In this document: piece by piece, positions 2,297-34,418 of the stretch
How the letters are laid out: each line of letters begins with the position of its first letter
Position numbering within the stretch: the first letter of the stretch is position 1
Source: Bacteroidales bacterium
GTDB lineage: Bacteria; Bacteroidota; Bacteroidia; Bacteroidales; VadinHA17
Direction of reading: 5' to 3'
DNA: 43,474 nt
Assembly: GCA_003141715.1 (NCBI GenBank)
Contig: PLNF01000037.1
Location: forward strand, 1-43,474
Notes under the pieces: generated by a model
Seen by the model: the letters and a program-made list of their open reading frames with translations, nothing else
Databases searched by the model: none
Told to the model about the DNA's origin: nothing
Position numbers and translations under genes: made by a program

Positions 2297-2376
2297 GACT
2301 TCAAGACTTCAAGACACCTCCTTCGCTAAAGCTTCGGAGGGCAAAGCCGCATGACTGCACGACTGCAAGACATTCA
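2297..2376. repeat. Degenerate octamer repeats (GACTTCAA, GACTGCAN) with a small hairpin
   Basis: Two GACTTCAA octamers (2297-2312) are followed by an imperfect hairpin around 2327-2340 (CCTCC/GGAGG flanking TTCGCTAAAGCTTC) and by GACTGCAC, GACTGCAA and GACATTCA (2353-2376). The array reaches the stop codon of the minus-strand decarboxylase remnant. The same GACTGCAN unit recurs at 34534-34573 and in diverged form near 29731. The CTCCTTCGCTAAA segment recurs in the element at 39712-39842. Confidence 0.6.
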
Positions 2377-11148: not shown

Positions 11149-12402
11149 TTATTTTAGATCGAATAACCTGCAGATGTGTCTGTTATAAATATTTTCATAA
11201 ACGCACTTCGAAACGATTTGCTCATTCGTTTCCAATAATCTGAAGTAATCCTTCATCTGTAAAGCTGCAAGTTTATATGCAACATGTATTAATTGCCTCA
11301 TGTTTGGATTATAATCAGAACTTCCGGGATTATGCTTTAATGAATCTGAAAACTTATCGCTGTTCCATTCAGAAATTTCCTGTTTTGAAGGGAGGGAAGA
11401 CACATTAATGTTAATAACATCGGCATACGGAGCGCATAACTCTTCGATTTTCTCCAGCGATTTAATATATATTTCTTTAACAAAATCGAGACCTTTACCA
11501 CCTGATTCAGCAAGACCAATCACTTCTTCAAGCCAGGTAGTACCGGCTGTTTTCAGATGTATTCCCTTGTTATATTTTTTAATTATTGAACCAATGTGTG
11601 AATAGAGAGAAAACTTATCCGATCCTGAATGAATGCTCATCTTCAGGTTCTCAGGCAGACCAAATTCCTTAGCAGCATAGTCAATAACCAAAAGATCAGA
11701 TTCAAATTCCTTAGCAAACAACAGAGGATCACCAACATAATCGACACCTTTGTTGAATCTTCCTGAAAACTTTGGAGCTATTGTCTGAACAGGTATGTTT
11801 TCAGAAGCCAGCATTTTAAGGATGAAAAAGAGTTCCACAGGAGTCTGGGGTTGAACCACTTCATCAATTGAAACTTCAGTGATAAAATTGCCATTCCCTT
11901 TAGCCTTTTCAATTTTCCTGTAAATATCCCGGGCCTTTATTGCAGCAAACAGGTACTTTTCTGCAATATGTTTTATCTGAGATATTGAAGATTCAAATGA
12001 TAATTTTGTTCCTGCTATTTTCAGCCCGCCATTGTATTTTTCAGCACCTGACAAGAATTCAAGTATATCTTTTTCATCGGCTTTCTTGCCAATATAAGAT
12101 GCAACATCAATAGTAAAAAAATCGGAACATTCGATAAAACGATCAACTGTATCAATGTTAATATGATCGGCATCAACGAAATATGGTTTTTTGAATCCGG
12201 CACCTTTTGTAACCGAATCTGCTTCAATCCTCACATCTAATGGTTGCGTGCCTATGGTAATATGTTCGCGATTTGACTTATTCCAGACAGGTGTTATGTC
12301 GATGCCTTTTTCAGATGCTGCAATAATTGCTTTTAATTGTGCACTTCCCTGGTGACCGAATCTGTCGCCCAGACCGATTGAATATTTAGCCAGTGTTTTC
12401 AT
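11149..12402 (-). CDS. uxaE: Tagaturonate epimerase (D-tagaturonate to D-fructuronate), UxaE family
   Basis: A 417-residue cytosolic protein. It matches the UxaE family known from Thermotoga, with YSIGLGDRFGHQGSAQLKAI at the N-terminus, FVDADHINIDTVDRFIE, IAPKFSGRFNKGVDYVGD, KMSIHSGSDKFSLYSHIG and IHLKTAGTTWLEEVIGLA; the Asp/His residues of these blocks are plausible metal ligands. It links the galacturonate branch (UxaC product tagaturonate) to the glucuronate branch (fructuronate), replacing the UxaB/UxaA altronate route. Its start overlaps the lacI stop by 4 nt, so the two are translationally coupled. Confidence 0.85.
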   Translation of the reverse strand: MKTLAKYSIGLGDRFGHQGSAQLKAIIAASEKGIDITPVWNKSNREHITIGTQPLDVRIEADSVTKGAGFKKPYFVDADHINIDTVDRFIECSDFFTIDVASYIGKKADEKDILEFLSGAEKYNGGLKIAGTKLSFESSISQIKHIAEKYLFAAIKARDIYRKIEKAKGNGNFITEVSIDEVVQPQTPVELFFILKMLASENIPVQTIAPKFSGRFNKGVDYVGDPLLFAKEFESDLLVIDYAAKEFGLPENLKMSIHSGSDKFSLYSHIGSIIKKYNKGIHLKTAGTTWLEEVIGLAESGGKGLDFVKEIYIKSLEKIEELCAPYADVININVSSLPSKQEISEWNSDKFSDSLKHNPGSSDYNPNMRQLIHVAYKLAALQMKDYFRLLETNEQIVSKCVYENIYNRHICRLFDLK

Positions 12403-13454
12403 AAAAAAAAGTCAACATTTTCAGATGTCACTATATCGACTGGGAGGTATTCAATTTTGTCAGGTATTTTATGCAGTGACAGGTATTCAAATAATTTCTT
12501 AATCCCCTTATATGTTTGTTCCTCAGGTCGCTGACCGATTAGAAACCTGGTAGTGCCGGATTTTAAAAACCTGACATTTGAATCAATAAGATCGTATCCG
12601 ATAAGATCGATTGATTTTAATCCTTTCTTTTCCAGGTATAAAGCAATGAGATATGATCTTGAACCAGTAATGAAAATTGAACCTATTCCCGGGTTTTCAA
12701 GAAACGCTTTATCGATAGCCCTTTCTACAATACTGGAAGAGGGGTTAGGAATATTTAGGATAATCTTCCTGCCTTTATTTTTACCTGATTTATGGAAATA
12801 ACTCAGAAATCCGTCAGTACGGTTGGTTAGGTGATGGACATTCTGGATATTTCTTGCGATGGTTACAACTAGTACGTCACTTTTTTCAGGAGTGACCATG
12901 TCAATAAGTTGTCCGGCGACTCTTCCGCTCTGAAAGATATCTTCACCGATATAGGCCAGAAAATCGGTATTTTCAATATAACCATCGATGAAAACGAAAG
13001 GTACCTTCTCTTTTTGGAGACGGGAACAAAATGTAACAGATTCTGCCTTAAAAATTGGTGCAAGAAGTACTCCATCAGGTTTGAGATCCAGAACAATACT
13101 GGTTCTCTTTTGAAAATCATCTTCGCTCTGCATATCAAAAGTTACCTGACTAAGTGTGACCGGAAAGGCATTGAGTTCCTCAATGGCCCTGATCATACCG
13201 AGTGGATGCTTTTTCCAGAAAGAATTGTCTTCTGAAGGTGCGGGAAGGAGTGACACAAGATGAAATCTTTTTTTTGATTTCAACGCCTGCGCCATTACAT
13301 TAGGGGAGTAATTGGTCTCTTTCAGTATTCGCTGAATCTTAAGCCTTGTTTTTTCAGCAACCTCGCCTCTGTTATGTATTACCCGGTCTACAGTACCAAT
13401 GGAAACTCCTGCCATCGTGGCGATATCCTTAATCCTTGACTTTTTTGGCGGCAT
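12399..13454 (-). CDS. LacI-family regulator of the hexuronate island
   Basis: A 351-residue repressor. The DNA-binding domain is at residues 5-55 (RIKDIATMAGVSIGTVDRVIHNRGEVAEKT), with GTVDRV where most LacI proteins have TVSRV, and a hinge helix NVMAQALKS. The effector domain follows, of the periplasmic sugar-binding type (HLVSLLPAP, DGVLLAPIFK, FVFIDGYIE, IFITGSRSYL, IDLIGYDLID). It sits between exuT (24-nt gap) and uxaE (4-nt overlap), so it most likely senses a hexuronate or an intermediate such as fructuronate or KDG and controls this island. The effector is inferred. Confidence 0.88.
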   Translation of the reverse strand: MPPKKSRIKDIATMAGVSIGTVDRVIHNRGEVAEKTRLKIQRILKETNYSPNVMAQALKSKKRFHLVSLLPAPSEDNSFWKKHPLGMIRAIEELNAFPVTLSQVTFDMQSEDDFQKRTSIVLDLKPDGVLLAPIFKAESVTFCSRLQKEKVPFVFIDGYIENTDFLAYIGEDIFQSGRVAGQLIDMVTPEKSDVLVVTIARNIQNVHHLTNRTDGFLSYFHKSGKNKGRKIILNIPNPSSSIVERAIDKAFLENPGIGSIFITGSRSYLIALYLEKKGLKSIDLIGYDLIDSNVRFLKSGTTRFLIGQRPEEQTYKGIKKLFEYLSLHKIPDKIEYLPVDIVTSENVDFFL

Positions 13455-13478: not shown

Positions 13479-14777
13479 CTAATCGATATTCACTTTTTTT
13501 ACTTTGGGTGCAAACAGATTCATAATTATCCATGCCAGAATATAAGCGCAGGCGGCAATTGTAAACATTACGGTATATCCGGTTTCAATATGTCCGGTCT
13601 TTTTAAAGAAATTAAGGATGTGCCCTGCAAAAACTGAAACGAAAGCGCCACCTACTGCTCCAGCCATACCTCCTATGCTGGTAACTGAACTGACTACTCT
13701 CTTAGGAAAAGCATCGGAAACAGTAGTAAAAATATTGGCTGACCATGCCTGATGCGATGAAGCGGCCAGACTTATAAGAGCCACTGCTCCCCACGTACTG
13801 ACACCGCCTGACTGAGCGAAGAAGACAGGAATAACAAGGAGAGCAAAAATTAACATTGTGTATTTTCGTGCATTAAACGGTGACATTCCTTTTTTTATCA
13901 TAAATGATGAAAGCCATCCACCGCCTACACTTCCTATTGTAGTTGAAGAATAAATGACTACCAGCGGAAGGCCAAATGATTTAATATCAAGACCGGCTCC
14001 CCTTACTGTTGAGAGCCACCCCGGAATCCAGAAAAGGTAGAACCACCAGATGGGATCTGTCATGGCTTTCCCGATAAAGAATATCCATGTCTGACGATAT
14101 CTTAAAAGCTGAACCCATGTGATTGGTTTCACACTTTCGTTTTTTTCATCTAAATCGCTTTTAATTAATTCAAGTTCACTGTCTGATAGTTTTCTTTGCT
14201 TTTCAGGCAATTCATAAAAGACAAACCAAAGAATGATCCATACAAAACCTATACCCCCGGTAATGATAAATGCTGCCTGCCATCCCCATCTTATTACTAT
14301 TGCCGGAATTGCAAGAGGGGCGACTATTGCTCCGACATTGGCGCCGCTATTAAAGATTCCTGTAGCGAGGGCTCTTTCTTTTTTTGGAAACCATTCAGCA
14401 ATCGTTCTTATAGCTGCAGGGAAGTTCCCGGATTCGCTTACGCCTAATAAAGCTCTCCAGAATCCAAATCCGATAACCCCTTTGGCCAGTGAATGCCCTA
14501 TTGCAGCGAGACTCCACAGAAATACAGATATTCCATAACCGATCCTGGTTCCGAATTTATCAATCAGCCTTCCTGCCAGCAACATGGAAAAGCCATAGAA
14601 CAATTGGAAAATAGTAACAATATTTCCGTATTCTACTTCTCCGATTTTCAGATCACTTTCAAGCAATGGTTTAAGAATTCCGATTACCTGTCTGTCGAGA
14701 TAATTAATGGTCGTTGCAAAGAATATCAATGCACAGACAGTCCACCTGTAACTTCCAATCTTTTTATTTTCAGGCAT
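13479..14777 (-). CDS. exuT: MFS hexuronate transporter (ExuT type)
   Basis: A 432-residue inner-membrane symporter with 12 predicted helices. It belongs to the anion:cation symporter branch: RWTVCALIFFATTINYLDRQVIG in helix 1, LAGRLIDKFGTRIGYG in the first cytosolic loop, RALLGVSESGNFPAAIRTIAEWFPKKERALATGIFNSGANVG in the ExuT/GudP signature, and a central charged loop. I start it at the ATG at 14777 (MPENKK); a longer in-frame start at 14807 would overlap the gnd stop and adds no membrane segment. Its neighbours uxaE, lacI, uxaC and uxuB support galacturonate/glucuronate as substrate. Confidence 0.85.
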   Translation of the reverse strand: MPENKKIGSYRWTVCALIFFATTINYLDRQVIGILKPLLESDLKIGEVEYGNIVTIFQLFYGFSMLLAGRLIDKFGTRIGYGISVFLWSLAAIGHSLAKGVIGFGFWRALLGVSESGNFPAAIRTIAEWFPKKERALATGIFNSGANVGAIVAPLAIPAIVIRWGWQAAFIITGGIGFVWIILWFVFYELPEKQRKLSDSELELIKSDLDEKNESVKPITWVQLLRYRQTWIFFIGKAMTDPIWWFYLFWIPGWLSTVRGAGLDIKSFGLPLVVIYSSTTIGSVGGGWLSSFMIKKGMSPFNARKYTMLIFALLVIPVFFAQSGGVSTWGAVALISLAASSHQAWSANIFTTVSDAFPKRVVSSVTSIGGMAGAVGGAFVSVFAGHILNFFKKTGHIETGYTVMFTIAACAYILAWIIMNLFAPKVKKVNID

Positions 14778-14803
14778 GTCTATTAAAGATAAGCAGATTA
14801 ATA

Positions 14804-16258
14804 TCAAACATTATATGTTGAAGAAGCTGTTGTTCCGCCCCGACCTGTCCAGTTTGTATGGAAAAATTCACCTCGTGGTTTATCAGTCCTTTCGTAGGTA
14901 TGTGCACCAAAATAATCGCGTTGTGCCTGTAAAAGATTGGCAGGAAGTTTTTCACAACGGTAACCATCAAAATATCCCAGAGCTGATGAGATCGCAGGGA
15001 TCGCAACGCCATTCATTGCAGCTGCCGATACTACATTTCTCCAGCCACTTTGTGCCTGCTCTACTTTATCCTCAAAGAAAGGATCGAGAAGAAGGTTTGT
15101 AATGTAAGGATTGTTATCAAACGCTTCCTTAATTTTTCCCAGGAAAGCCGACCTTATAATACATCCACCGCGCCACATGAGAGCAATACCTCCAAAGTTT
15201 AGTCTCCATTTATATTCTTCGGCTGCAGCCTTCATCAGCTCATAACCCTGAGCATAAGAAACAATTTTTGACGCGTACAGGGCCTCTTTTATGTCATTGA
15301 TGAATTTAAATTTGTCACCGGTATAATCCGGAGCGGGACCATGTAATATTTTTGATGCTTCCACTCTTTCATCTTTTATCGCAGAAAGACATCTTGAAAA
15401 AACAGCTTCCCCGATTAATGTCAGGGGAATACCCAGATCGAGGGCAGTAACAGCTGTCCATTTGCCTGTTCCTTTCTGCCCTGCAGTGTCAAGGATCTTA
15501 TCCACAAGAGGTTTGCCGTCAGAATCTTTATAAGCAAGGATGTCTCGCGTAATTTCAATGAGATAACTGTTAAGTTCCCCCTCATTCCATTCTTTAAAAA
15601 TCATGTGCATCTCATCTGCAGTCAGGTGCAGGAGATCTCTCATAATCTGGTAAGCTTCCGTAATAAGTTGCATATCACCATACTCTATGCCATTATGAAC
15701 CATTTTTACGAAATGACCGGCTCCGTTCTCACCAACCCAGTCACAGCATGGAGTACCATCTTCGACCTTTGCTGCAATTGCCTGAAAGATTGGTTTCACA
15801 AATTGCCATGCTGCTTTTGATCCACCAGGCATGATTGAGGGTCCTAATAATGCTCCTTCTTCACCACCTGATACCCCGGTACCGATGTAAAGAAGTCCTT
15901 TGCTTTCTACAAAGGCAGTTCTCCTGTTTGTATCAGGAAAATGAGTATTACCGCCATCAATAATTATATCTCCCGGAGCAAGGTGAGGGATGAGCATATT
16001 GATCATCTCATCGACTGCATCTCCTGCTTTGATCATTAGCATTACCTTCCTGGGACGTTCAAGAGATCCGACAAGTTCCTCAATTGAATGAGTGCCAATG
16101 ATCTTCTTGCCACGGGCTCTTCCGGCGAGGAAATCATCAACTTTCTGTGTCGATCTGTTGAATACAGAAACCGCGTATCCCTTACTCTCCATATTAAGGA
16201 CAAGATTCTCGCCCATTACTGCCAGACCTATCAATCCGATATCTGATAATTTGATCAT
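14804..16258 (-). CDS. gnd: 6-phosphogluconate dehydrogenase, decarboxylating
   Basis: A 484-residue cytosolic enzyme converting 6-phosphogluconate to ribulose 5-phosphate and CO2 with NADP(+). The N-terminal Rossmann fold has GLAVMGENLVLNMESKGYAV and FNRST. GVSGGEEGALLGPSIMPGG and the catalytic K/N block HFVKMVHNGIEYGDMQLI follow. The all-helical C-terminal half contains GTGKWTAVTALDLGIP, IALMWRGGCIIRSAFL and the substrate tail HTNWTGRGG. It lies between a Gfo/Idh oxidoreductase and exuT. Full-length and intact; whether its job here is gluconate catabolism or the general pentose phosphate pathway is open. Confidence 0.95.
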   Translation of the reverse strand: MIKLSDIGLIGLAVMGENLVLNMESKGYAVSVFNRSTQKVDDFLAGRARGKKIIGTHSIEELVGSLERPRKVMLMIKAGDAVDEMINMLIPHLAPGDIIIDGGNTHFPDTNRRTAFVESKGLLYIGTGVSGGEEGALLGPSIMPGGSKAAWQFVKPIFQAIAAKVEDGTPCCDWVGENGAGHFVKMVHNGIEYGDMQLITEAYQIMRDLLHLTADEMHMIFKEWNEGELNSYLIEITRDILAYKDSDGKPLVDKILDTAGQKGTGKWTAVTALDLGIPLTLIGEAVFSRCLSAIKDERVEASKILHGPAPDYTGDKFKFINDIKEALYASKIVSYAQGYELMKAAAEEYKWRLNFGGIALMWRGGCIIRSAFLGKIKEAFDNNPYITNLLLDPFFEDKVEQAQSGWRNVVSAAAMNGVAIPAISSALGYFDGYRCEKLPANLLQAQRDYFGAHTYERTDKPRGEFFHTNWTGRGGTTASSTYNV

Positions 16259-16308: not shown

Positions 16309-17319
16309 TCACGCCATTGGGCCATTGGGCCTTTGCGCCATTCCTTTATAATACTCCGCAACTACCTCATCCATAACCTTGCTTGTTCTGGCTCCTGTTA
16401 TTCCGGTACTGGGAGAAGCTCCTTGCCCGTTGAGTGATTGAACTATTTTTTCAATAAGATAGTACTGAACATGCTCAGGGCGTTCATTGATGAATTTCTG
16501 ACGGCCTGATTCATTTGTAAGAACAATTGGTTCAAAACTAAATGTCGAAAATTTAATGGACCCTTTATCTCCTATAATCTCTATGGTATCTCTGCCGCTA
16601 TCAAGGGAAGCACTGAAAGACCATGTACCGGTTCCAATAATATTATCACAAAAGATAAATTCAGCTGAAACAAAATCTTCGGCTTTATATAGCCCTGCAT
16701 GATTTACTGCTATCGATTTGACTTTCTGAATTGGTCCGAAAAGAAAATCAAGATAATCAAGCTGATGGGAGGCCATATCGAAGAAATGTCCACCGCCTGA
16801 TATTTTAGGATCAACCCGCCATGATGGTTTTCCGGCTTTTTCATCTGCAGAAGGAGACTTGAATAGCTGTACCATTAAAAAACGTACTTTTCCAATACCA
16901 CCATTTTCAATGAGATTTTTAACTAAAAGGAAACCGGGAAGGGCTCTTCTGTAATATGCTACAAAAACCGGAACCCGGAATTTTTCAGCTGCTTTGTTTA
17001 TTTTAAGGCATTCGGAGTAGTTTACAGCCATTGGTTTCTCAATATAGACCGGTTTGCGGGCTTTAATAACTTCAATGGCATATTCAGCATGGCTTCCCGG
17101 GGGAGTGGCAATATATACAGCATTAATATCCTTGTCGTTAATCAGATCCGCAGCCTTTGAATAAAATTTTGGAACATTATGTCGCCGGGCATAATCCTCA
17201 GCCAGGATGGCATCTCTCCGCATAACGGCAATCAGTTGTGAATCTCTTACCTTATTAAATGCCGGACCACTTTTTACTTCAGTGACGTTACCACACCCAA
17301 TTATTCCCCAGTTTATCAT
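16309..17319 (-). CDS. Gfo/Idh/MocA-family oxidoreductase
   Basis: A 336-residue NAD(P)-dependent oxidoreductase. Rossmann motif GIIGCGNVTEVKSGPAFNKV at residues 5-24, AVYIATPPGSHAEYAIE, and the family signature YIEKPMAVNYSECLKI with the conserved EKP Lys. SGGGHFFDMASHQLDYLDFLFG carries the His/Asp active-site pair. The substrate is a sugar, sugar acid or inositol-like compound; I cannot say which. It follows the LarA-like gene by 22 nt. The last ten residues (MAQRPNGPMA) and the stop are encoded within or next to an octamer repeat (16312-16343), so the present C-terminus may be a by-product of repeat growth. Confidence 0.85.
   Translation of the reverse strand: MINWGIIGCGNVTEVKSGPAFNKVRDSQLIAVMRRDAILAEDYARRHNVPKFYSKAADLINDKDINAVYIATPPGSHAEYAIEVIKARKPVYIEKPMAVNYSECLKINKAAEKFRVPVFVAYYRRALPGFLLVKNLIENGGIGKVRFLMVQLFKSPSADEKAGKPSWRVDPKISGGGHFFDMASHQLDYLDFLFGPIQKVKSIAVNHAGLYKAEDFVSAEFIFCDNIIGTGTWSFSASLDSGRDTIEIIGDKGSIKFSTFSFEPIVLTNESGRQKFINERPEHVQYYLIEKIVQSLNGQGASPSTGITGARTSKVMDEVVAEYYKGMAQRPNGPMA
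16312..16343. repeat. Four CAAYGGCN octamers overlapping the end of the Gfo/Idh gene
   Basis: The minus strand reads GAATGGCG, CAAAGGCC, CAATGGCC, CAATGGCG in exact 8-nt phase and ends next to the TGA stop (16309-16311). The same octamer family recurs at 29654-29701. Confidence 0.65.
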
Positions 17320-17341: not shown

Positions 17342-18613
17342 TTATGCCAACCGCTGCTTTGATGTCCATAATCCAAGTGCAGGATTTGAGATATAGTAGA
17401 CTTCCTCTCCGTCATCCATTTTATTAAAACCTTCTTTCAGTTTTTTTGGATTGAATTTCTTCAACATATCATTGATATCATGATATTTAAAGTTTACTGA
17501 TTCTATCTCTTTCCCTGTCAGGTATCCAGGGCAATAAGTTATTGAGAATCTTCCTTCTGAACTTCCATGAATCAGATGAGCAGCTGCACTCAGATTATTA
17601 TTAAGTTCTTCATTCTCCTTCAGAGATTTCAATGTGGCTGGTGTTCCTCGATAACCATACTTCCTGATCAACCGGTCTATCTCTTTGTCCTCACCAAACT
17701 CTTTTAAACCTGGTGCCAGAACAATCAACTCCCCATTATCAGCCATTGCCATACGGGTCCGGTAAATACTTTTGTTCCCGACCCATGTGCTTTTATACTC
17801 GGCAGGATCAAGATAGACAACAACTTTTTTCAGTGTTTTTTCAAGTACATTGAAGTTTACCTTAAGGGAAAGATCCGCTGCAAGCCTGAATACTTCTTCA
17901 TCATCGCCGACAAAAAGTCCTCTCACCACAAGTTTTCCTCCTTCATCGCGGCCTATGACAGTATGTACATAAACGATAGGTAAATGGCCCGTAAAATTAG
18001 CAGAGGCATAGTTCAGGAGAGACCTCACAGGATTATCCGCTTTTCCCATAATACGCTCCATGCCATAAACCGCTCCGATAAAATGACTTTTGTTAATACC
18101 TTCAGGTCCGCCTGTCCCGATAAACAGGTTCTTATTATAATTGGCCATGCCTATGACTTCATGTGGGACAACCTGTCCGACTGATAATATCAGGTCATGT
18201 CCACCATTGAAAACCAGTCTGTTAAGCTGGGCCGGCCATGAATAATTCAAAGCACCTGCAGTAATATCAGATACGAATTCTCCGGGTACTGTACCTACAG
18301 TCACGACATCATTTCTCCAGTCATGTACTCGAAAAAGTGATTTTTTCACTCCTTTATACATTTTGTCCAGCTGAGTGTCAGTCATTGGAGAGTGGGTACC
18401 AATGGCAGGGAGGATATCTTTCAGGCTATCCTTATAATATTGGTAAATATAAGTAGTAAGTTCCCCGGCTCTTGAATGAAAGCGGGTACAATCGGGAGGT
18501 ACAACCAGCACCTTCTTTCTTACACCGAGCTTTTTCAATGCAGAAAAAATGGCTGACTCAAGGTCTTTTGAGTTAAGGACTGTATTCTCTGAACCGGATT
18601 TGAAATATATCAT
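17342..18613 (-). CDS. LarA-family nickel-pincer racemase/epimerase homologue
   Basis: A 423-residue protein of the lactate racemase (LarA, former DUF2088) family. Catalytic landmarks are present: VPPDCTRFHSR (D41, T43, R44, H46), IGTHSPMT (H74), GQVVPHEVIG (H151) and MANYNKNLFIG (K161). The 10-residue spacing H151-K161 equals that of H174-K184 in L. plantarum LarA, where the Lys holds the nickel pincer cofactor covalently. Family members racemise or epimerise 2-hydroxy acids. The place between a HAD hydrolase and a Gfo/Idh oxidoreductase in a hexuronate operon suggests an aldonate or uronate-derived sugar acid as substrate and not lactate. The cofactor genes larB, larC and larE are not in the window. 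Function beyond the family is inferred. Confidence 0.8.
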   Translation of the reverse strand: MIYFKSGSENTVLNSKDLESAIFSALKKLGVRKKVLVVPPDCTRFHSRAGELTTYIYQYYKDSLKDILPAIGTHSPMTDTQLDKMYKGVKKSLFRVHDWRNDVVTVGTVPGEFVSDITAGALNYSWPAQLNRLVFNGGHDLILSVGQVVPHEVIGMANYNKNLFIGTGGPEGINKSHFIGAVYGMERIMGKADNPVRSLLNYASANFTGHLPIVYVHTVIGRDEGGKLVVRGLFVGDDEEVFRLAADLSLKVNFNVLEKTLKKVVVYLDPAEYKSTWVGNKSIYRTRMAMADNGELIVLAPGLKEFGEDKEIDRLIRKYGYRGTPATLKSLKENEELNNNLSAAAHLIHGSSEGRFSITYCPGYLTGKEIESVNFKYHDINDMLKKFNPKKLKEGFNKMDDGEEVYYISNPALGLWTSKQRLA

Positions 18614-18653: not shown

Positions 18654-19535
18654 TTATTTCCAGTTCGGATGCTCCGGCAAATATGTCTCAAACTCTTCAA
18701 TCAGATTCTCCTCATATGCGCCTTTAAATTTTCCTGCAAAGAACCTGTTCAGACCTTCTATATAAAGTTTTTCCCATGATTCTTCTTCTTTTCCGGGATT
18801 GATGGGAAAGAAGAGGACTCCGTTTGATTTGGCAGCCTTGAGATCCCCGTTAGCATCCCCGATCATGAGAATCTTTTCATCTGCATACTTACCCTTAGCA
18901 GCATATTTAAGATGTTCTGCTTTAGTTCCATGTTCCTGCCCGGCTATCATCCTGAGAAAATGGTCGATTCTGTTCTCTTCCCATTCACGCTTCAATGCTT
19001 CAAATGGTGTCTGTGAAACAACCATGACATCCGCAGTTGACTTTATTTTCTCAAGGCATTCTTTGACAAATGGGAAGGGAGTCATTCCGAATACCATTTT
19101 TTCGATGTCCTCATTTACCTTCAGCGACCATTCAAGTGTCTGTGTAATGAAAGGATCATTTATGTCGTCTGCATATTTTTTTAATGTCGGATTCCCAAGC
19201 TTTGTCTCTTTCTTTATCCATTCTATAAGCGGAGCAGCTGAAGGAACGGTGAAATTTCTGGCTTTTATTTCGGGTCGGGTTGCCAGAAGTCTGAGCGTTT
19301 CATTTATTGCCAGGAACCGATTGCATCCCCTGTAAGTTGAATATAGATTCACAAATTCCCATGTCTCGCGGGCATACTTCGAAACAGGCTGCATCCTGAA
19401 ATACTTTATGAAGTTAGGGCAGAAACACTCTTTCTGTTTTATCTCCATTGTATCAAAAGCACAACCATCGGAATCAATTCCTATAAAAAACTCTTTCTCC
19501 GGCTTTAAGGCTATTAACTGTTCCTGTGGATTCAT
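18654..19535 (-). CDS. HAD-superfamily hydrolase
   Basis: A 293-residue cytosolic protein. HAD motif I is DSDGCAFD (D21 nucleophile, D23 acid), motif II is VMVVSQTP, and motif III/IV is KILMIGDANGDLKAAKSNGVLFFPINPG. A large helical cap lies between motifs I and II. The operon position (between PPi-PFK and the LarA homologue; gaps of 70 and 40 nt) suggests a phosphosugar or phospho-sugar-acid phosphatase in the uronate pathway. The substrate is not recognisable. Confidence 0.75.
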   Translation of the reverse strand: MNPQEQLIALKPEKEFFIGIDSDGCAFDTMEIKQKECFCPNFIKYFRMQPVSKYARETWEFVNLYSTYRGCNRFLAINETLRLLATRPEIKARNFTVPSAAPLIEWIKKETKLGNPTLKKYADDINDPFITQTLEWSLKVNEDIEKMVFGMTPFPFVKECLEKIKSTADVMVVSQTPFEALKREWEENRIDHFLRMIAGQEHGTKAEHLKYAAKGKYADEKILMIGDANGDLKAAKSNGVLFFPINPGKEEESWEKLYIEGLNRFFAGKFKGAYEENLIEEFETYLPEHPNWK

Positions 19536-19605: not shown

Positions 19606-20907
19606 TTACTTTTTTTCATATGCTTCAAGTTTATATGCGGGTAGTTTCTTATCCACAAATTTCATTTTGAATCTTGCAAACCTCTGTCTCCCGTTAATGA
19701 TAGGCACTGATGGCCAGTCTTCACCAATCAGAGGTCTGGCGTATGCAAGAAATTCATCTGTAACATCGCAACGACTTTTGGCAATCCAATGTTCAGGAAA
19801 TGTTCTTTCTGAAAGTGCAACTTTCTCAAGCGGAACTTTATCGTACCTTACATTATATATAAACCCAGGTTCTCTCAGAATAGTGGCCATCCAGCCATTC
19901 CCTTCATATAAAGCTATCTCAACAGCTTTCTGTCCCACCTTATATGCTTCATCGAGGTCGACGATCGAGGCATAAGCAGCGGTATCCCGTTGATCAGTTC
20001 CCATAGACTGACCCCTGGCGGCACCTCTGGCTTTCAAACCCTTATTGTTAAGATAATTCACAACAGTCTGGAAGACAGAATTCTGACTCGATCCAAAAGA
20101 GGTATGACCAAAAGCATCCGTTACTTCTCCGATACTGACGACGTCAAATCCTTCGCTTACAACAACGATACATCTTCCATCTTTTTTCAACTGGTCATTG
20201 ACATTATCGACCAGATTATCGATAGATACCTTTGATTCTGCCATATAGATCTGCAGAGGCATATTCCTATCCGGATCGGCAAGTCTTGCAGCCGCAGGAA
20301 TATAACCAATTTTCCGTCCCATTGCCTGGATAACCAATACGGGATCAGCAGGAGCGGAGCCCATATTCTCTTCATTGGCATTCTGAATAATATGCGACCA
20401 GTATCTTGCCACACTTCCATATCCCGGAGTGTGATCAATAAGTTTGAATTCATTGTCACCCAAATCATTATCAATTGTTTTTGGAACTCCCACTGCAATC
20501 ATGTCAAGACCTTTGGTCTTTGCCATTTCACTGACTTTGAAAGCAGTATGTTGTGAATCATTACCGCCTATATAGAAAAAGTATCCGATATTATGAGCCT
20601 TAAACACTTCCATTATTCTCTGGAAATCTTTTTGCTGTGTATCTTTAAGTTTATATCGACAGGTACCTATACTTCCGGCAGCAGGTGTGTTTCTTAAAAG
20701 GGCAACCTCCTCTTCACTCTGGGCTGACAGATCAAGTAGCTCCTCATTCAGAACTCCTTCTATCCCATGCCATCCTCCATATACCTTCCCAAATTTGTCA
20801 GGGAACATCTTGCAGGTCTCGATAATCCCTCGCAATGAACTATTGATAACCGGCGAGGGTCCGCCTGACTGGGCCACTATTACATTCTTAGCCATAGTCT
20901 TTGTCAT
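19606..20907 (-). CDS. pfp: 6-phosphofructokinase, probably PPi-dependent
   Basis: A 433-residue PFK-family enzyme, longer than the 320-residue bacterial ATP-PFK and typical of the PPi-type/long clade. Nucleotide/PPi loop QSGGPSPVINSSLRG (13-27), IGGNDSQHTAFK (113-124) with Asp117 at the position that is Gly in ATP-dependent enzymes, and GVPKTIDNDL (140-149) with Lys143, the second residue associated with PPi use and with the catalytic Asp146. AMGRKIGYIPAAARL and SEGFDV follow. Asn116 replaces the usual first Asp of GGDD. It would phosphorylate fructose 6-phosphate reversibly. A promiscuous role on another sugar phosphate is possible given the operon. Confidence 0.85.
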   Translation of the reverse strand: MTKTMAKNVIVAQSGGPSPVINSSLRGIIETCKMFPDKFGKVYGGWHGIEGVLNEELLDLSAQSEEEVALLRNTPAAGSIGTCRYKLKDTQQKDFQRIMEVFKAHNIGYFFYIGGNDSQHTAFKVSEMAKTKGLDMIAVGVPKTIDNDLGDNEFKLIDHTPGYGSVARYWSHIIQNANEENMGSAPADPVLVIQAMGRKIGYIPAAARLADPDRNMPLQIYMAESKVSIDNLVDNVNDQLKKDGRCIVVVSEGFDVVSIGEVTDAFGHTSFGSSQNSVFQTVVNYLNNKGLKARGAARGQSMGTDQRDTAAYASIVDLDEAYKVGQKAVEIALYEGNGWMATILREPGFIYNVRYDKVPLEKVALSERTFPEHWIAKSRCDVTDEFLAYARPLIGEDWPSVPIINGRQRFARFKMKFVDKKLPAYKLEAYEKK

Positions 20908-21012: not shown

Positions 21013-21855
21013 TTACACTCCGCTATATGCACTAAACCCCCCGTCAACCGGTATAACTACGCCTGTAACAAACTTTGACAAGTCAGAGACAAGGTATATA
21101 AGTGTGCCTGTTAATTCTTCAGGTACACAATAGCGTTCCATTGGTGTACCATTTATTATTTTCTTTCCTCTTGGCGTAAGGCCTCCGGTTTTTTCATCAA
21201 TTAAGAGGAATCTATTCTGATTTGTTAAAAGAAATCCGGGAGCTATTGCATTAACCCTGACACCTGTTTTTGAAAAATGAACCGCCAGCCATTGTGTGAA
21301 ATTATTAACCGCTGCTTTTGCAGCAGAATAAGCGGCAATCTTAGTCAGGGGCCTGTATGAGTTCATTGAAGAAATATTTATTATAACTCCTGATTTTTTC
21401 TTGACAAGGTCAGTCCCGAAAACCATGGATGGAATGAGCGTGCCTTTAAAGTTGAGGTCAAATACCTTATCAAATCCTTCGATTTGAAGTCCAAAAAATG
21501 TCTCTTCGAGGTTTTCGTCTTCAGTACCTTCCATTTTTTCGACCCTTGTGGTTGCTTCAGGAGAGTTCCCGCCGGCTCCGTTTATCAGTATGTCAATAGG
21601 GCCGAACCTCTCATGAATGTCTTTCCTTGCAGCCTCCAAAGATATCTTGTCGAGAACACTGGCTGAAACTCCTATGGATGGTGTATTAAACTCTTTTTCA
21701 ATCTGTTTCGCAACAACAGTTGCCCCATCTTTGTTGAGGTCGAGGATAACAGTTTTCACCCCATGCGCGGCAAGTGATCTTGCCATGGTTGAACAGATAA
21801 TACCTGCTCCCCCTGTTATGACAGCTATTTTATCTCTTAAATTTAAATCATTCAT
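21013..21855 (-). CDS. uxuB: SDR-type D-mannonate oxidoreductase (fructuronate reductase)
   Basis: A 280-residue short-chain dehydrogenase. Cofactor motif TGGAGIICSTMARSLAAHG (15-33), NGAGG, and the active-site block ISSMNSYRPLTKIAAYSAAKAAVNNF with Ser, Tyr and Lys. The insertion VEKMEGTEDENLEETFFGLQIEGFDKVFDLNFKGT and the C-terminal PMERYCVPEELTGTLIYLVSD are typical of the YjmF/UxuB-like SDR group and not of the long polyol-dehydrogenase UxuB of E. coli. It would reduce D-fructuronate to D-mannonate with NAD(P)H. It follows uxaC by 48 nt, consistent with this role. Confidence 0.82.
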   Translation of the reverse strand: MNDLNLRDKIAVITGGAGIICSTMARSLAAHGVKTVILDLNKDGATVVAKQIEKEFNTPSIGVSASVLDKISLEAARKDIHERFGPIDILINGAGGNSPEATTRVEKMEGTEDENLEETFFGLQIEGFDKVFDLNFKGTLIPSMVFGTDLVKKKSGVIINISSMNSYRPLTKIAAYSAAKAAVNNFTQWLAVHFSKTGVRVNAIAPGFLLTNQNRFLLIDEKTGGLTPRGKKIINGTPMERYCVPEELTGTLIYLVSDLSKFVTGVVIPVDGGFSAYSGV

Positions 21856-21903: not shown

Positions 21904-23301
21904 TCAAAATGAGAAATACTCCTTCGCATTTCTGTATGAAATACCTTCAATTATTGATTTCAATAGTTCTTCTTCATCAGGAATGAGCCCTTTTTCAACT
22001 TCTTCCCCCACAAAATTACACACCAGGCGTCTGAAATATTCGTGCCGCGGGTAGGAGAGGAAACTGCGTGAATCAGTGACCATTCCTATAAACCTTCTTA
22101 ATAATCCGAGAGCTTCGATATCCTTCAGATGCTTTTCAATACCACTTTTCTGATCGAGGAACCACCAGGCAGCTCCATATTGGACTTTCGCTGCAGATGA
22201 ACCGTCATTAAAATTCCCGGCCATTGTTATCATCATCTCATTATCTGCGGGATTCAGATTATAGAGAATCGTTTTTGTAAGCTGATCCTTATTATCAAGT
22301 TCACTGAGAAACTTCGATATTTTCAGCGGATCTTGTGCAATTCCGATTGAATCCCAGCCTGTATCCGGCCCCATCTCTCTGAACATCCTGGCATTGCTAT
22401 TTCTCATTGCACCAACATGAAACTGTTGAGTCCAGCCTCTTTTATGATTCAATCTGCAGAGTTCAAGCATCACAGCTGTTTTATATTTTTCAGCTTCATC
22501 AGATGAAATGATCTCTTCTTTAATCAGTTTCTTAAAAATCCTGTTAATTTCCGGTGAAGTAAAAGGGACAAAATAAAAACGGTCAAGACCGTGATCAGAT
22601 AATCTGCATCCCATTTCATGAAAGAACCCGTGTCTTTTATCCAATGCCTCAAGAAGAGCATCAAAATTCCTGATCTCAGTTCCATTCACCAGTTCCAGTT
22701 TCTTTATGTATGCCTTGAATTTCTCAGGATCCTCAGTTTTAATTACATTATCGGGCCGGAAAGTTGGCAGAACTTGAATTTCGAAAGTGTCTTTCAGTTT
22801 CAGATGATGTTCAAGATTATCTGTAGGGTCATCAGTTGTACAGACGACCTCTGCTTTCATTTTTCGTAAAATAGATCTGGTACTGAATTCTTTCGTCTGA
22901 AGCAGGGTAGAAGCTTTTTCATAAATCCCCGTAGCTGTCGATGGCGAAAGGAGTTCAGTTATATTGAAATATCTTAAAAGTTCGAGATGTGTCCAGTGAT
23001 AAAGAGTATTTCCTGCTATGGCAGGGACTGTTTCTGCCCATTTTTTAAATTTTTCGATGTCTGAAGCATTCCCTGTGCAATATTTTTCGTTGACACCATT
23101 TGTTCTCATTGCCCGCCATTTATAATGATCACCTTCGAGCCAGGCTTGTGTAAGATTTGTGAATTGATAGTCTCCGTCAATCATTGCAGGTGACAGATGG
23201 CAGTGGAAATCAATAATAGGCTGATTCTCAGAATATATATGATAAAGTTTTTCAGCTGTTTTATTCCCTAAAAGAAAATTCTCATGAATAAATGGTTTCA
23301 T
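21904..23301 (-). CDS. uxaC: Glucuronate/galacturonate isomerase
   Basis: A 465-residue cytosolic amidohydrolase-fold enzyme that isomerises D-glucuronate to fructuronate and D-galacturonate to tagaturonate. It has the family start NFLLGNKTAEKLYHIY, the metal-site motif IIDFHCHLSP (about 30-39), AMRTNGVNEKYCTG, VVCTTDDPTDNLEHH, QFHVGAMRNSNARMF, the C-terminal VTDSRSFLSYPRHEYFRRLVCNFVG and the usual length. It is first in the ten-gene minus-strand run and divergent from the GH105 gene, with a shared regulatory gap. Confidence 0.95.
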   Translation of the reverse strand: MKPFIHENFLLGNKTAEKLYHIYSENQPIIDFHCHLSPAMIDGDYQFTNLTQAWLEGDHYKWRAMRTNGVNEKYCTGNASDIEKFKKWAETVPAIAGNTLYHWTHLELLRYFNITELLSPSTATGIYEKASTLLQTKEFSTRSILRKMKAEVVCTTDDPTDNLEHHLKLKDTFEIQVLPTFRPDNVIKTEDPEKFKAYIKKLELVNGTEIRNFDALLEALDKRHGFFHEMGCRLSDHGLDRFYFVPFTSPEINRIFKKLIKEEIISSDEAEKYKTAVMLELCRLNHKRGWTQQFHVGAMRNSNARMFREMGPDTGWDSIGIAQDPLKISKFLSELDNKDQLTKTILYNLNPADNEMMITMAGNFNDGSSAAKVQYGAAWWFLDQKSGIEKHLKDIEALGLLRRFIGMVTDSRSFLSYPRHEYFRRLVCNFVGEEVEKGLIPDEEELLKSIIEGISYRNAKEYFSF

Positions 23302-24660: not shown

Positions 24661-25863
24661 ATGAAACAAAAAGCTTTATTATTATTTGCAGCAACACTTT
24701 TTGTTGTTCAATTAGCTTATTGCCAGGGTTTTCTAAGAGCAAACGGGAAAGAAATCGTAAATAAAAAAGGCGAAAATGTTTTGCTCAGAGGAATTGGTCT
24801 TGGGGGCTGGATGCTGCAGGAACCTTATATGTTACAGCTCTCAGATGCAGCAGGCACCCAGACTGAAATAAAATCAAAGATCAGCGATTTAATCGGGCAG
24901 AAGAATTGTGAGGAATTCTACACTCGTTATCTGAATAATATGATAACTGAGAAAGATATTGATGCTCTCAAAAAATGGGGATTTAATTCAATACGGCTCC
25001 CAATGCATTACAATCTCTTCACTCTGCCAGTTGATAAAGAGCCAGTTAAAGGACAAAATACATGGTTAGAAACGGGTTTTAAATTAACTGATAACCTTCT
25101 TTCATGGTGTAAGAAAAACAAAATGTACCTGATTCTTGATCTCCATGCTACTCCGGGAGGACAGGGAAATGACCGGCCAATCGCAGACATAGATACACTT
25201 AGACCCAGGCTCTGGGAGAGCGAGGCAAATAAGAAAAAGACCATTGCGTTGTGGAAGAAGCTTGCTGAACGATATAAAGATGAAGAATGGATCGGGGGAT
25301 ATGACCTAATCAACGAAACCAATTATAAACTTGAGGGTAATGAATCTCTGAAAAAACTCTTTTCTGCAATTACCGGGGAGATTCGTATAGTTGACAAGAA
25401 ACATATTATTTTCATTGAAGGTAACCAGTTTGCAAATGATTATACCGGACTGACACCACCCTGGGATAATAATATGGTCTATAGTTTTCATAAGTATTGA
25501 AATCCGACCACTGTCGAGACAATTCAGAAGTATTTAGATATGAGAGAGAAATTTAATGTGCCCCTATGGATTGGAGAATCGGGTGAAAATACTAATGAAT
25601 GGTTCAGAGCCGCTGTGAATTTGTTTGAGACAAATAACATTGGCTGGTCATGGTGGACGATCAAAAAAATCGGTTCGGAGAGTAGTTTAATGACTATTTC
25701 AAAACCTGTGGGTTACCAGAAAATTATTGATTACTTGGCAGCCAAAGGGCCAAAACCAACTATTGAAGAGGCAAGGAAAACATTAATGGAATTGGCCGAG
25801 AATGTAAAGTTTGAAAATTGTAAGATAAATAATGAAGTGATGGAGGCGTTGTTTTTACGCTAA
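24661..25863 (+). pseudogene. Exported GH5 glycoside hydrolase with an in-frame TGA
   Basis: The frame encodes 400 residues with a signal peptide (MKQKALLLFAATLFVVQLAYC) and a GH5 barrel: LLRGIGLGGWMLQEPYM, WGFNSIRLPMHYNLF, YLILDLHATPGGQGND, DLINETN with the acid/base E219, and WIGESGENTNEW with the nucleophile E306. A TGA at 25498-25500 (codon 280) interrupts SFHKY/NPTTVE exactly where GH5 relatives have Trp; TGG to TGA is a single change. The truncated product would lack the nucleophile and be inactive. TGA serves as a normal stop in other genes here, so general recoding is unlikely. No other damage is seen, so the lesion is recent, a strain variant, or a sequence error. It lies between GH105 and kduI. 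Confidence 0.85.
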
Positions 25864-25880: not shown

Positions 25881-26717
25881 ATGAAAGTAGAACTAAGATA
25901 TGCAGCTCATCCTGACGATGTAAAAAATTGGGATACAGCCAGACTTCGGAAAGAGTTTCTCATTGAAAACATCTTTATCCCAGATGAGATATCACTTGTC
26001 TATTCAATGTACGATCGTTTTATGGTCGGAGGCGCCATGCCGGTTAAGAAAAAGCTAATTCTTGAAAGTACGGATGAACTTAAATCTGAAAATTTCCTTG
26101 ACAGAAGGGAGATGGGAATTATCAATATTGGAGGAGACGCGGTGATTCATGCTAGTGGTAAGATATATAAAATCGGATTCAAGGAGGCTTTATACCTTGG
26201 CAAAGGTTCTTATGATGTCGTTTATAATTCGATAGATCCGGATAAACCAGCTAAACTATATATTAATTCAGCGCCTGCTCATCACGCATATCCTTCAAGG
26301 AAGGTTACACTCGCTGATGCAGAAGTAGTTATTATGGGATCTATGGAGTCTTCTAATCACCGAACAGTTAATAAGTTGCTTATTAACAGTGTCATCGAGA
26401 CTTGCCAGCTTCAGATGGGAATGACCGAACTTAAGACGGGCAGCGTTTGGAACACTATGCCGGTTCATACACATAAAAGAAGGATGGAAGCTTATTTCTA
26501 CTTTGAGTTGGCTGAAAAACAGACTATCTGTCATTTCATGGGTGACCCCGATGAAACAAGGCATATATGGATGAAGAATGAGCAGGCTGTCCTTTCGCCA
26601 TCATGGAGTATTCACAGTGCAGCAGGAACATCTAATTATTCTTTTATATGGGGTATGGCTGGAGAGAACCTCGATTACGGTGATATGGATATACGTCAAC
26701 CGGATACTTTAAAATAA
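25881..26717 (+). CDS. kduI: 5-dehydro-4-deoxy-D-glucuronate isomerase
   Basis: A 278-residue cytosolic double-cupin enzyme that isomerises 5-keto-4-deoxyuronate to 2,5-diketo-3-deoxygluconate. The zinc ligands fall at H196, H198, E203 (MPVHTHKRRMEAYFYF) and H245 (WSIHSAAGTSNYSFIWGMAGEN), the same numbering and total length as E. coli KduI. The N-terminal MKVELRYAAHPDDVKNWDTARLRKEFL is also typical. It sits 18 nt after the GH5 frame and 12 nt before kduD in the pectin operon. Confidence 0.96.
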   Translation: MKVELRYAAHPDDVKNWDTARLRKEFLIENIFIPDEISLVYSMYDRFMVGGAMPVKKKLILESTDELKSENFLDRREMGIINIGGDAVIHASGKIYKIGFKEALYLGKGSYDVVYNSIDPDKPAKLYINSAPAHHAYPSRKVTLADAEVVIMGSMESSNHRTVNKLLINSVIETCQLQMGMTELKTGSVWNTMPVHTHKRRMEAYFYFELAEKQTICHFMGDPDETRHIWMKNEQAVLSPSWSIHSAAGTSNYSFIWGMAGENLDYGDMDIRQPDTLK

Positions 26718-26728
26718 TAAATTATATT

Positions 26729-27517
26729 ATGAAAGATTTATTTGATCTTACCGGGAAAGTTGCACTTGTAACAGGCGGTACACAAGGGATAGGACTCGCA
26801 ATAGGATTATTATTGGGAAAAGCCGGAGCCAGAGTATGCGTTAATGGTCGCAATGATGAAAAGCTTCAGGGTTGTAAGGAGGCATTTAAAAATGAAGGAC
26901 TGGATGTTTTAACCCTGAATTTCGATGTTACCGATGAGCATGAAGTAGATAAAGGAATATCTCTGATCGAAAAAAGTGTAGGTTCCGTTGATATTCTTGT
27001 TAATAATGCCGGTATCATAAAAAGGATACCTATACTTGATATGGCCATAGCCGAATTCAAGCAGGTAATTGATGTTGATCTTGTTGCGCCTTTGATAGTT
27101 TCAAAACGGGTTGTACCTAAGATGATTGAAAAGCACAGCGGAAAGATCATTAATATGTGTTCCATGATGAGTGTATATGGCAGGAATACAGTATCGGCAT
27201 ATGCTTCGGCTAAAGGAGGACTGAAGCTTCTGACTCAGAATATGACATGTGAATGGGCAAAGTACAATATTCAGATCAATGGTATTGGACCTGGTTATAT
27301 TGCCACTTCACTAACAGCTCCATTACGTGAAAACGGGCACCCTTTTAATGATCTTGTTATGACACGCACACCAGCAGGCAGATGGGGTGAACCTGAGGAT
27401 GTGGCTAATGCAGCTCTCTTCCTGGCCTCAAAAGCCAGCAACTTTGTCAACGGACATATCCTGTATGTTGATGGAGGAATCCTTGCCAACTTCGGGTACT
27501 TAAAGGGGGAAAATTAG
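26729..27517 (+). CDS. kduD: 2-keto-3-deoxygluconate dehydrogenase (KduD-type SDR)
   Basis: A 262-residue short-chain dehydrogenase: cofactor motif TGGTQGIGLAIGLLLGKAGA (16-35), NNAG at about 91-94, active-site MCSMMSVYGRNTVSAYASAKGG with Ser, Tyr and Lys, and the KduD/gluconate 5-dehydrogenase tail TPAGRWGEPEDVANAALFLASKASNFVNG followed by DGG. Placement directly after kduI argues for reduction of 2,5-diketo-3-deoxygluconate to KDG. Gluconate 5-dehydrogenase is the alternative name often given to this clade. Its stop overlaps the stop of the convergent membrane-protein gene by 4 nt. Confidence 0.87.
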   Translation: MKDLFDLTGKVALVTGGTQGIGLAIGLLLGKAGARVCVNGRNDEKLQGCKEAFKNEGLDVLTLNFDVTDEHEVDKGISLIEKSVGSVDILVNNAGIIKRIPILDMAIAEFKQVIDVDLVAPLIVSKRVVPKMIEKHSGKIINMCSMMSVYGRNTVSAYASAKGGLKLLTQNMTCEWAKYNIQINGIGPGYIATSLTAPLRENGHPFNDLVMTRTPAGRWGEPEDVANAALFLASKASNFVNGHILYVDGGILANFGYLKGEN

Positions 27518-33267: not shown

Positions 33268-33870
33268 TTAAATTTCGCTGGTTATATCTGGTCGCGCAAA
33301 TTTCTTTTCTGCAACCTCTGCGAGCCAGAACATTGCAACTGCTGCAATTATAAGAAGAAAAGTGAAGAGTCCGGGTGAAATCCCCATTACCTCATTTATT
33401 TTAACAGGTCCCTTATATGACCCATTCGCCAGTTTCTGTATAAACGGATATGTTTCAGCAAAAAGGAATGCACCTGTCAGTCCGCCCAGGAAAAAGATCA
33501 TTGCGTCAATTTTCCCGATTGAAAGTGCACATAACCCTGTACCTGGGCAAAACCCACCCATAATAAAGCCGGCTCCCATTATAATTCCGCCAACGATTGA
33601 AGCAGCAACATAAAACTCATTGACAAATACAAGATTCAGATTAAGCAGTCCAAAGTAACTTAATAGCTGTGATCCTATAAGTGCAACAATTGCGGCAGTA
33701 AAAAAAACTTTAATTACCGTGGTATCATATCCATAAAACATTCCTGCAAGTTTACGGCTTGAAGAGAAACCGGCTTGTTCAAGTGAAAATCCGAAACCGA
33801 TGCCAATCAACAGTGCGATAAGCAAATCAAGCCATTCGGGCATTGATATAAGTGATGATATTGGTCCCAT
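33268..33870 (-). CDS. YeeE/YedE-family sulfur transporter, second half
   Basis: A 200-residue membrane protein. I start it at the ATG at 33870 (MGPISSLISMPEWLDL), 1 nt after the stop of the preceding gene; a longer reading frame upstream only overlaps that gene. Blocks typical of the family are IGFGFSLEQAGFSSSRKLAGMFYG and MGGFCPGTGLCALSIGKIDAMIFFLGGLTGAFLFAETYP, in which the Cys of GGFCPGTG is the residue implicated in sulfur-compound passage in YeeE. Together with the neighbouring gene it makes up one full YeeE/YedE unit, so the two likely pair in the inner membrane to import thiosulfate or a related compound. Confidence 0.85.
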   Translation of the reverse strand: MGPISSLISMPEWLDLLIALLIGIGFGFSLEQAGFSSSRKLAGMFYGYDTTVIKVFFTAAIVALIGSQLLSYFGLLNLNLVFVNEFYVAASIVGGIIMGAGFIMGGFCPGTGLCALSIGKIDAMIFFLGGLTGAFLFAETYPFIQKLANGSYKGPVKINEVMGISPGLFTFLLIIAAVAMFWLAEVAEKKFARPDITSEI

Positions 33871-33871
33871 A

Positions 33872-34381: not shown

Positions 34382-34418
34382 ATAAAACAAATTCAATTTT
34401 TATTTTCTTGCTCAAATA

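Follow-up and report, generated by a model that had tools for sequence, protein, structure and literature searches.

A predicted hexonate 2-epimerase of LarAH group 18 and an alternating kinase slot in a hexuronate operon of a Bacteroidales bacterium

Results

The window, by which we mean the whole stretch of 43,474 nucleotides analysed here (contig PLNF01000037.1 of the Bacteroidales assembly GCA_003141715.1), carries a run of ten co-directional genes, which extends on the minus strand from position 23301 down to 11149; no gap between neighbouring genes exceeds 105 bp, and two pairs overlap by 4 bp. The gene at the centre of this study encodes a nickel-pincer nucleotide enzyme of the LarA superfamily (17342..18613), which we refer to as LarAH18. 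Families were assigned with the curated cut-offs of Pfam and NCBIfam, and the coordinates are those of a list of open reading frames (ORFs) with mechanically set starts. The run begins with uxaC, coding for a glucuronate/galacturonate isomerase (21904..23301; NF002794, 597.1 bits versus a cut-off of 387; PF02614), followed by a gene for a short-chain dehydrogenase/reductase (SDR) with the uxuB function, a D-mannonate oxidoreductase or fructuronate reductase (21013..21855; NF006132, 389.3 versus 281). Next come genes for a PfkA-family phosphofructokinase (PFK) homologue with a pyrophosphate (PPi) signature (19606..20907) and for a HAD-family phosphatase-like protein (18654..19535; PF13419, 32.1 versus 23.8), which precede LarAH18. 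Downstream of LarAH18 lie a gene for a Gfo/Idh oxidoreductase (16309..17319; PF01408 and PF22725), for which none of eight NCBIfam matches is over its cut-off, and gnd, coding for a decarboxylating 6-phosphogluconate dehydrogenase (14804..16258; TIGR00873, 772.3 versus 426.7). The run ends with genes for an MFS transporter, perhaps of the hexuronate/aldonate (exuT-like) type (13479..14807; PF07690), whose nearest NCBIfam model, TIGR00893, scores 235.5 bits and thus under its cut-off of 395, for a LacI-family regulator (12399..13454; PF00356 and PF13407) with no NCBIfam model over cut-off among the matches listed, and for the tagaturonate/fructuronate epimerase UxaE (11149..12402; PF16257, 179.8 versus 27.1), which has no NCBIfam match at E 0.001. 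A preliminary description of this DNA had placed the LarA homologue between HAD and Gfo/Idh genes, two genes from gnd and in one run with uxaC, uxuB, exuT and uxaE, and the coordinates agree with it, the SDR and MFS genes standing for uxuB and exuT; the PFK gene, which also belongs to the run, was absent from that description.

The LarAH18 ORF encodes 423 amino acids from an ATG start. Its product is a LarA homologue of group 18 with the full set of catalytic and cofactor-binding residues, and we annotate it as a predicted hexonate 2-epimerase acting on mannonate/gluconate or their 6-phosphates. The Pfam Lar_N match is weak (29.0 bits versus a cut-off of 23.3); the NCBIfam model NF052594 (NPN_18_hexonate, 'nickel-dependent putative hexonate epimerase') matches residues 10-417 with 653.5 bits versus 500. 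The malate racemase models NF052593 and NF052595 remain under their cut-offs (32.1 versus 500 and 20.5 versus 462 bits, respectively), and no lactate racemase model is found among the NCBIfam matches at E 0.001. H74, H151 and K161, which had been named in the preliminary description, are all present and, together with H177, D41, R44 and K281, are invariant in an alignment of 77 of the 81 homologues including that of the window, four having been excluded by a length filter. The same holds for the E152-V153 loop and for W277. H177 corresponds to H200, the nickel ligand of LarA, and W277, by counting from K281, to LarA Y294; the LarA numbering was transferred through an alignment to 4NAR and the residue list in section 8 of PMC7583248. 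In that section, an E-V/S loop and a tryptophan are given as the signature of the hexonate groups 18-20.

An AlphaFold2 model of LarAH18, built with 25 sequences, reached a pLDDT of 88.8 and a pTM of 0.85, and a fold search with this model found 19 entries of the PDB at E<=0.001, each of the LarA type. The best match is 4nar (E 3.1e-26, TM 0.76, 25% identity in the structural alignment), to which H74, H151, K161, H177, D41 and R44 align with like residues, followed by the malate racemase 7s91 and then by lactate racemases. According to PMC7583248, 4NAR is GntE2, a D-gluconate 2-epimerase of Thermotoga maritima. The suggestion of the preliminary description that a sugar acid is a more likely substrate than lactate is supported by the fit to NF052594, by malate racemase scores far under cut-off and by the nearest fold.

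Because genes for LarC, LarE and a LarB-like protein lie elsewhere in the window genome, this organism can probably make the nickel-pincer cofactor. Neither of the two genomic outcomes that the preliminary description had named as refuting its reading, a grouping with lactate or malate racemases and a lack of larB, larC and larE, was observed. A single larC gene (481.7 bits, over cut-off) is located on contig C113, where it is followed by larE (TIGR00268, 306.6 versus 150 bits). Beside them, a partial ORF matches the AIRC domain (37.5 versus 30 bits), and this gene is read as larB from its domain and its position.

To place the operon in context, one genome per species was scanned for relatives of LarAH18. 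At least 557 were confirmed, and the 80 best of them, with 64-89% identity, form the set of loci used here. The core order in these loci is fructuronate reductase, a kinase in many of them, LarAH18, in some a Gfo/Idh protein, and 6-phosphogluconate dehydrogenase. Counting only loci with more than 4 kb of flank on the relevant side, 50 of 62 have an SDR gene within 4 kb upstream of LarAH18, and 45 of 52 have gnd at most 4 kb downstream of it, so that the linkage is not due to chance. Across the window and the 80 loci, uxaC homologues occur in 45 cases and uxaE homologues in 38; some of these lie far off or on the opposite strand. Nine of the 80 loci (L036, L043, L065, L073, L075, L078, L079, L082 and L083) carry next to gnd, between it and LarAH18, a gene for a PdxB-like 2-hydroxyacid dehydrogenase; the copy in L043 scores 440 bits with NF001309 (cut-off 434). 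As 4-phosphoerythronate is an inhibitor of Gnd, a metabolite-repair role of this dehydrogenase is possible.

The slot directly upstream of LarAH18 varies. Counting recognised genes, it is filled among the 80 loci by the SDR gene in 24, by either of two types of PfkB kinase gene in 23 (PfkB0) and 12 (PfkB2), by the HAD gene in 10, by PFK in one, by uxuA in two and by other genes in five, while three loci end there at a contig edge. PFK precedes the HAD gene in seven of the ten HAD loci, and in the remaining three the contig starts at the HAD gene. Among the NCBIfam models listed at E<=1e-10, neither PfkB0 nor PfkB2 passed a cut-off. Kinases of 2-keto-3-deoxygluconate (KDG) are among the solved structures closest to PfkB0, which by counting retains both arginines corresponding to R105 and R167 of the Thermus thermophilus KDG kinase, residues with a role in binding the carboxylate.

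The genomes of 46 of the 80 loci and the window genome, 47 in total, were searched with PfkB0, PFK and HAD queries. The operon-type PFK (at least 72% identity; row HK_L098 of our PFK alignment is that of genome G045) is present in 11 genomes, none of which has PfkB0 or PfkB2, and it lies in the LarAH18 operon in nine of them and at a contig end in the other two (G033 and G045). A PfkB kinase is found in 34 of the other 36 genomes, namely PfkB0 in 31 (74-84% identity, in one case in two fragments) and the PfkB2 type in three (G035, G037 and G042, assigned by a 33-34% match to the PfkB0 query and a PfkB2 gene in the locus slot). Neither kinase was found in G001, in which a HAD gene (86%) stands at a contig start and PFK was not found, or in G016; the PfkB matches of 27-30% in G001 and G009 were taken as KDG-kinase-like. 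Where the SDR gene directly precedes LarAH18, 23 of the 24 genomes have PfkB0 elsewhere, the exception being G016. The two kinases hence exclude each other in the set examined (Fisher p 4.5e-9, kinship ignored). In the LarAH18 tree, 75 rows were labelled, 12 as PFK (HAD or PFK in the locus) and 63 as PfkB (by locus or genome search), and six were left out. The PFK state needs at least three changes by the starred, well-supported branches and six in the best tree. A phylogeny-aware pair test found only three independent pairs on starred branches, of which on average 2.9 were opposite (p 0.25), and is underpowered by construction.

No residue of the SDR, LarAH18 or Gnd cleanly separates the PFK loci (6, 12 and 10 rows, respectively) from the others (51, 60 and 40 rows). 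The best is SDR position 226, which is L in all six PFK loci and also in 12 of the 51 others. The lack of a clean split suggests that the PFK and PfkB versions of the operon share the same intermediates.

Searches for other kinases in the window genome gave the following picture. The PfkB query returned nothing at E 0.001, KDG-kinase families not being part of this search. The P-loop gluconokinase model TIGR01313 has no match in the window genome at E 0.01 and none over cut-off in 20 genomes searched; of 14 control genomes, ten have a match and two one over cut-off. Among the families listed for five FGGY matches of the window genome, none is the FGGY gluconokinase model (TIGR01314) over its cut-off. 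Four of them are a glycerol kinase, a fuculokinase, a ribulokinase and a XylB-like protein, the last scoring 308 bits under a cut-off of 380 and 145 versus 649 as FGGY gluconokinase; the fifth has no family at 1e-40 and adjoins a gene read as rhamnose isomerase.

The operon PFK passes NF010675, the model of PPi-PFKs (379.9 versus 273 bits), and keeps the GGNDS, PKTIDND, MGR and SEGF motifs, the first two of which form the PPi-type signature (D104 and K124). At the anion site for fructose 6-phosphate, in the numbering of the Escherichia coli enzyme, the positions of R243 and R252 are kept, whereas Pro stands at R162 and Thr at H249, and TIDND is followed by an insertion of five residues. The alignment of the anion site included two shorter PFK homologues of the window genome (L128 and L129). 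The closest other PFK of the genome, which is 34% identical and is a paralogue of 402 residues on contig C88, likewise differs from E. coli at these positions, so the changes alone prove no new substrate. Either a carboxylate replacing a phosphate or an ordinary sugar phosphate is compatible with the pocket. The window genome contains four other PFK-like matches, which makes a housekeeping role of the operon PFK unlikely.

Orthologues of the HAD protein (at least 66% identity) are present in 11 of the 47 genomes, ten of which have the PFK orthologue; the structural model of the protein is poor (pLDDT 54.3). Paralogues with 52-55% identity were noted in seven of the 47 genomes, for example on contig C9 of G000 (L121:5888-6769) and in L122-L125. 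By eye, these lie near genes reading as hydrogenase/NADH-module subunits, and a transketolase-like gene adjoins the paralogue in L122 and lies about 1.1 kb off in L124.

The ordinary exit from mannonate was not found in the window genome, as it has no canonical UxuA over cut-off (best 63.4 bits versus 199.55). The genome has only a UxuA paralogue, a TIM-barrel protein with a signal-like N-terminus on contig C64 (L003:1474-2601), which scores 63-113 bits, depending on the model (cut-offs 191-200), and 127 bits with the broad Pfam model (cut-off 23.7); it adjoins an enolase-superfamily-like protein that also has a signal-like start. No UxuA over cut-off was detected in any of 27 genomes (G000-G024, G033 and G036). 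The operon gnd is the only 6-phosphogluconate dehydrogenase gene found in the window genome (single PF00393 match), and zwf and a pgl-like gene lie together on another contig than gnd (contigs C26 and C77). For these reasons, the operon gnd may also serve the ordinary oxidative pentose phosphate pathway.

Discussion

We consider it likely that LarAH18 interconverts D-mannonate and D-gluconate, or their 6-phosphates, and thereby connects hexuronates with ribulose-5-phosphate via Gnd, with the PFK, alone or with the HAD protein, in the place of a PfkB-type kinase. The reaction, its direction and the phosphorylation state of the substrate are inferred from family membership and operon context. 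UxaC, UxaE and the SDR would produce D-mannonate from galacturonate or glucuronate. The C2 epimer of mannonate is gluconate, the 6-phosphate of which is the substrate of Gnd, and a LarA-type epimerase therefore fits as the missing link. LarAH18 would carry the nickel-pincer nucleotide made by LarB, LarE and LarC and, using proton-coupled hydride transfer, invert C2 of the hexonate; H74 and H151 would serve as the acid/base pair, and K161 and H177 would hold the cofactor. D-mannonate would so be turned into D-gluconate and then phosphorylated by the kinase to 6-phosphogluconate, or the two steps could occur in the reverse order via 6-phosphomannonate. The operon Gnd would decarboxylate 6-phosphogluconate to ribulose-5-phosphate, and the operon PFK, possibly together with the HAD protein, would stand in for the PfkB-type kinase that occupies the same slot in many relatives. 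By an argument made in PMC6978723, the conversion of hexuronate to ribulose-5-phosphate would involve no net redox change provided that the SDR and Gnd use the same cofactor.

Several elements of this pathway have precedents. The preliminary description had suggested that the epimerisation could be undescribed, which is not supported: in PMC7583248 (Desguin et al. 2020), 2-epimerisation of D-gluconate/D-mannonate by LarA homologues was demonstrated and group 18 was hypothesised to epimerise a hexonate, and NCBIfam names the family accordingly. Further gluconate 2-epimerases were added by a later superfamily paper (PMC11770544), the consulted text of which does not use the name LarAH18. The window protein fits group 18 and NF052594 in score and signature, and no protein-level difference was found; what this analysis adds to the description of the group is the operon, the cofactor genes and the pathway context. 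GntE2 belongs to another group (LarAH20) and is only 25% identical, yet its catalytic residues, E-V/S loop and tryptophan align, it is the best fold match, and it shares the hexuronate-locus context as summarised in PMC6978723. Rodionova et al. (2012), as cited in PMC6978723 and PMC7583248, proposed that in T. maritima mannonate enters the pentose phosphate pathway by way of gluconate. Thermotoga has been proposed to use a gluconate kinase (PMC6978723), whereas none was recognised in the window genome. The galacturonate pathway of Lactobacillus suebicus, as laid out in PMC6978723, shares UxaC, UxaE, UxuB, the conversion of mannonate to 6-phosphogluconate and Gnd, but places the kinase before the epimerase on the basis of extract assays, with genes that paper left unidentified. 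Hexuronate loci of an Algoriphagus, in which a TRAP transporter goes with a regulator of the LacI family, were reconstructed in PMC5507952, section 13 of which names no mannonate epimerase. The epimerase is thus a new member of a named and predicted group and the pathway a variant of the Thermotoga proposal, while the alternation in the kinase slot between a PfkB-family kinase and a PfkA-family PPi-signature PFK with HAD is new here. In the literature searched, subscription papers excepted, neither a group-18 pathway nor the replacement of PfkB by PFK was found described.

A number of observations weigh against the route from mannonate to gluconate. In seven of the eight Verrucomicrobiota loci, the gene immediately before LarAH18 codes for a PfkB kinase, and the DNA examined contains neither gnd nor uxaC; L072 is the only one of the eight with gnd. 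UxuA is found beside LarAH18 in nine of the 80 loci, and canonical UxuA over cut-off occurs together with LarAH18 in 13 of the 47 genomes; on these counts the idea that LarAH18 is a plain substitute for UxuA was rejected in its simple form. The low identity to GntE2 has to be considered as well. No assay of a group-18 enzyme was found in the literature consulted, the assay table of PMC7583248 included, and in that paper genome context proved right for only two of the activities. Moreover, absences in the window genome are weak since the assembly is incomplete (94.4% complete, 4.98% contaminated, 148 contigs), and the 80 loci, being the best of at least 557 confirmed relatives, over-represent close kin and metagenome assemblies.

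The alternatives concern either the substrate of LarAH18 or the role of the kinase. It is very improbable that LarAH18 is an ordinary lactate or malate racemase in a sugar operon; although superfamily and fold are the same, the scores with the racemase models, the ranking of the fold matches and the hexonate signature led us to reject this. LarAH18 might act on another sugar acid, such as altronate/allonate, an aldarate or a uronate, with gnd linked for another reason. The NCBIfam name says only 'hexonate', and the Km of the group 19 enzyme GntE1 for mannonate is very high, and another native substrate was suspected for it in PMC7583248. However, UxaE and the mannonate-type SDR lead to fructuronate and mannonate, the C2 epimer of which is gluconate, no gene among the ten matches an altronate dehydratase model, and gnd follows in 45 of the 52 loci with sufficient flank; we regard such a substrate as unlikely. 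Within the route from mannonate to gluconate, and not exclusive of it, phosphorylation could precede epimerisation, so that the kinase makes 6-phosphomannonate and LarAH18 converts it to 6-phosphogluconate; a PFK-fold enzyme could instead make fructuronate 1-phosphate, which the SDR would reduce to 6-phosphomannonate. On chemical grounds, a PFK fold could act on C1 of fructuronate because the furanose form of this sugar is fructose with a carboxylate at C6, and the operon PFK keeps residues aligned to R243, R252, E222 and TIDND of E. coli. On the other hand, no SDR or LarAH18 residue cleanly marks the PFK loci, which speaks mildly against fructuronate 1-phosphate, and GntE1 and GntE2, which share the group-18 signature, use free mannonate according to PMC7583248. 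We hold this order of steps to be conceivable but rather doubtful.

For the kinase, we tentatively suggest, with less confidence than for the epimerase, that a PPi-signature PfkA-superfamily enzyme, usually accompanied by the HAD phosphatase, became a kinase of a sugar acid (gluconate, mannonate or C1 of fructuronate) and replaced the PfkB hexonate kinase in several lineages. It is also quite possible that the operon PFK is a plain 6-phosphofructokinase or a sedoheptulose-7-phosphate kinase for sugars that leave the pentose phosphate pathway, and that a gene elsewhere, which escaped recognition, encodes the hexonate kinase. Its score with NF010675, the retained catalytic motifs and two of four anion-site positions, and the departure of the C88 paralogue from the E. 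coli pattern are all consistent with this. Against it stand the four other PFK-like matches in the genome, the changes at R162 and H249 and the five added residues, the lack of a P-loop or FGGY gluconokinase over cut-off in the window genome, and the fact that the exclusivity is with a KDG-kinase-like PfkB. The known PPi-PFKs of the PRK14072/NF010675 type (PDB 3k2q and 3hno) share the GGNDS and PKTIDND motifs; the operon PFK, for its part, shares 34-37% identity with the nearest other PFK of full length wherever one of this type is present, has an altered anion site and stands in a LarAH18 operon in nine of the 11 genomes having it. A sugar-acid kinase with a PFK fold would, to our knowledge, be a new activity for the PFK superfamily, and no sugar-acid kinase of the PFK type was found in the literature searched by kinase name.

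If the proposed route is true, LarAH group 18, with relatives in Bacteroidetes, Ignavibacteria and Verrucomicrobia, would gain a concrete substrate and pathway, and the handling of mannonate by users of pectin sugars that lack canonical UxuA would be explained. It would also provide candidate genes for a mannonate/gluconate kinase step like the one measured in L. suebicus (PMC6978723).

Other features of the window

Upstream of the ten-gene run and behind two more ORFs lies a divergent pair consisting of kduI and a gene for a kduD-like SDR (25881..27517, plus strand; NF002091, 426.1 versus 250 bits), which represents the branch for unsaturated uronates. The kduD-like SDR itself (26729-27517, plus strand) scores 421.7 bits with the gluconate 5-dehydrogenase model PRK07097 (cut-off 369) and 220 with KduD, which is under the cut-off of 339.

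Three further sites might represent damaged genes. A GH5-like ORF of 279 amino acids (24661-25500, plus strand) stops early; in the roughly 380 bp behind it, no ORF of at least 150 amino acids is listed, and the gene is possibly truncated. At 2374-3540 (minus strand), two adjoining ORFs appear by eye to be pieces of one pyridoxal phosphate-dependent decarboxylase, which is possibly broken. Lastly, two overlapping ORFs in different frames at 33268-34396 (minus strand) seem by eye to be parts of one YeeE-like membrane protein, for which a frameshift or an assembly error is possible.

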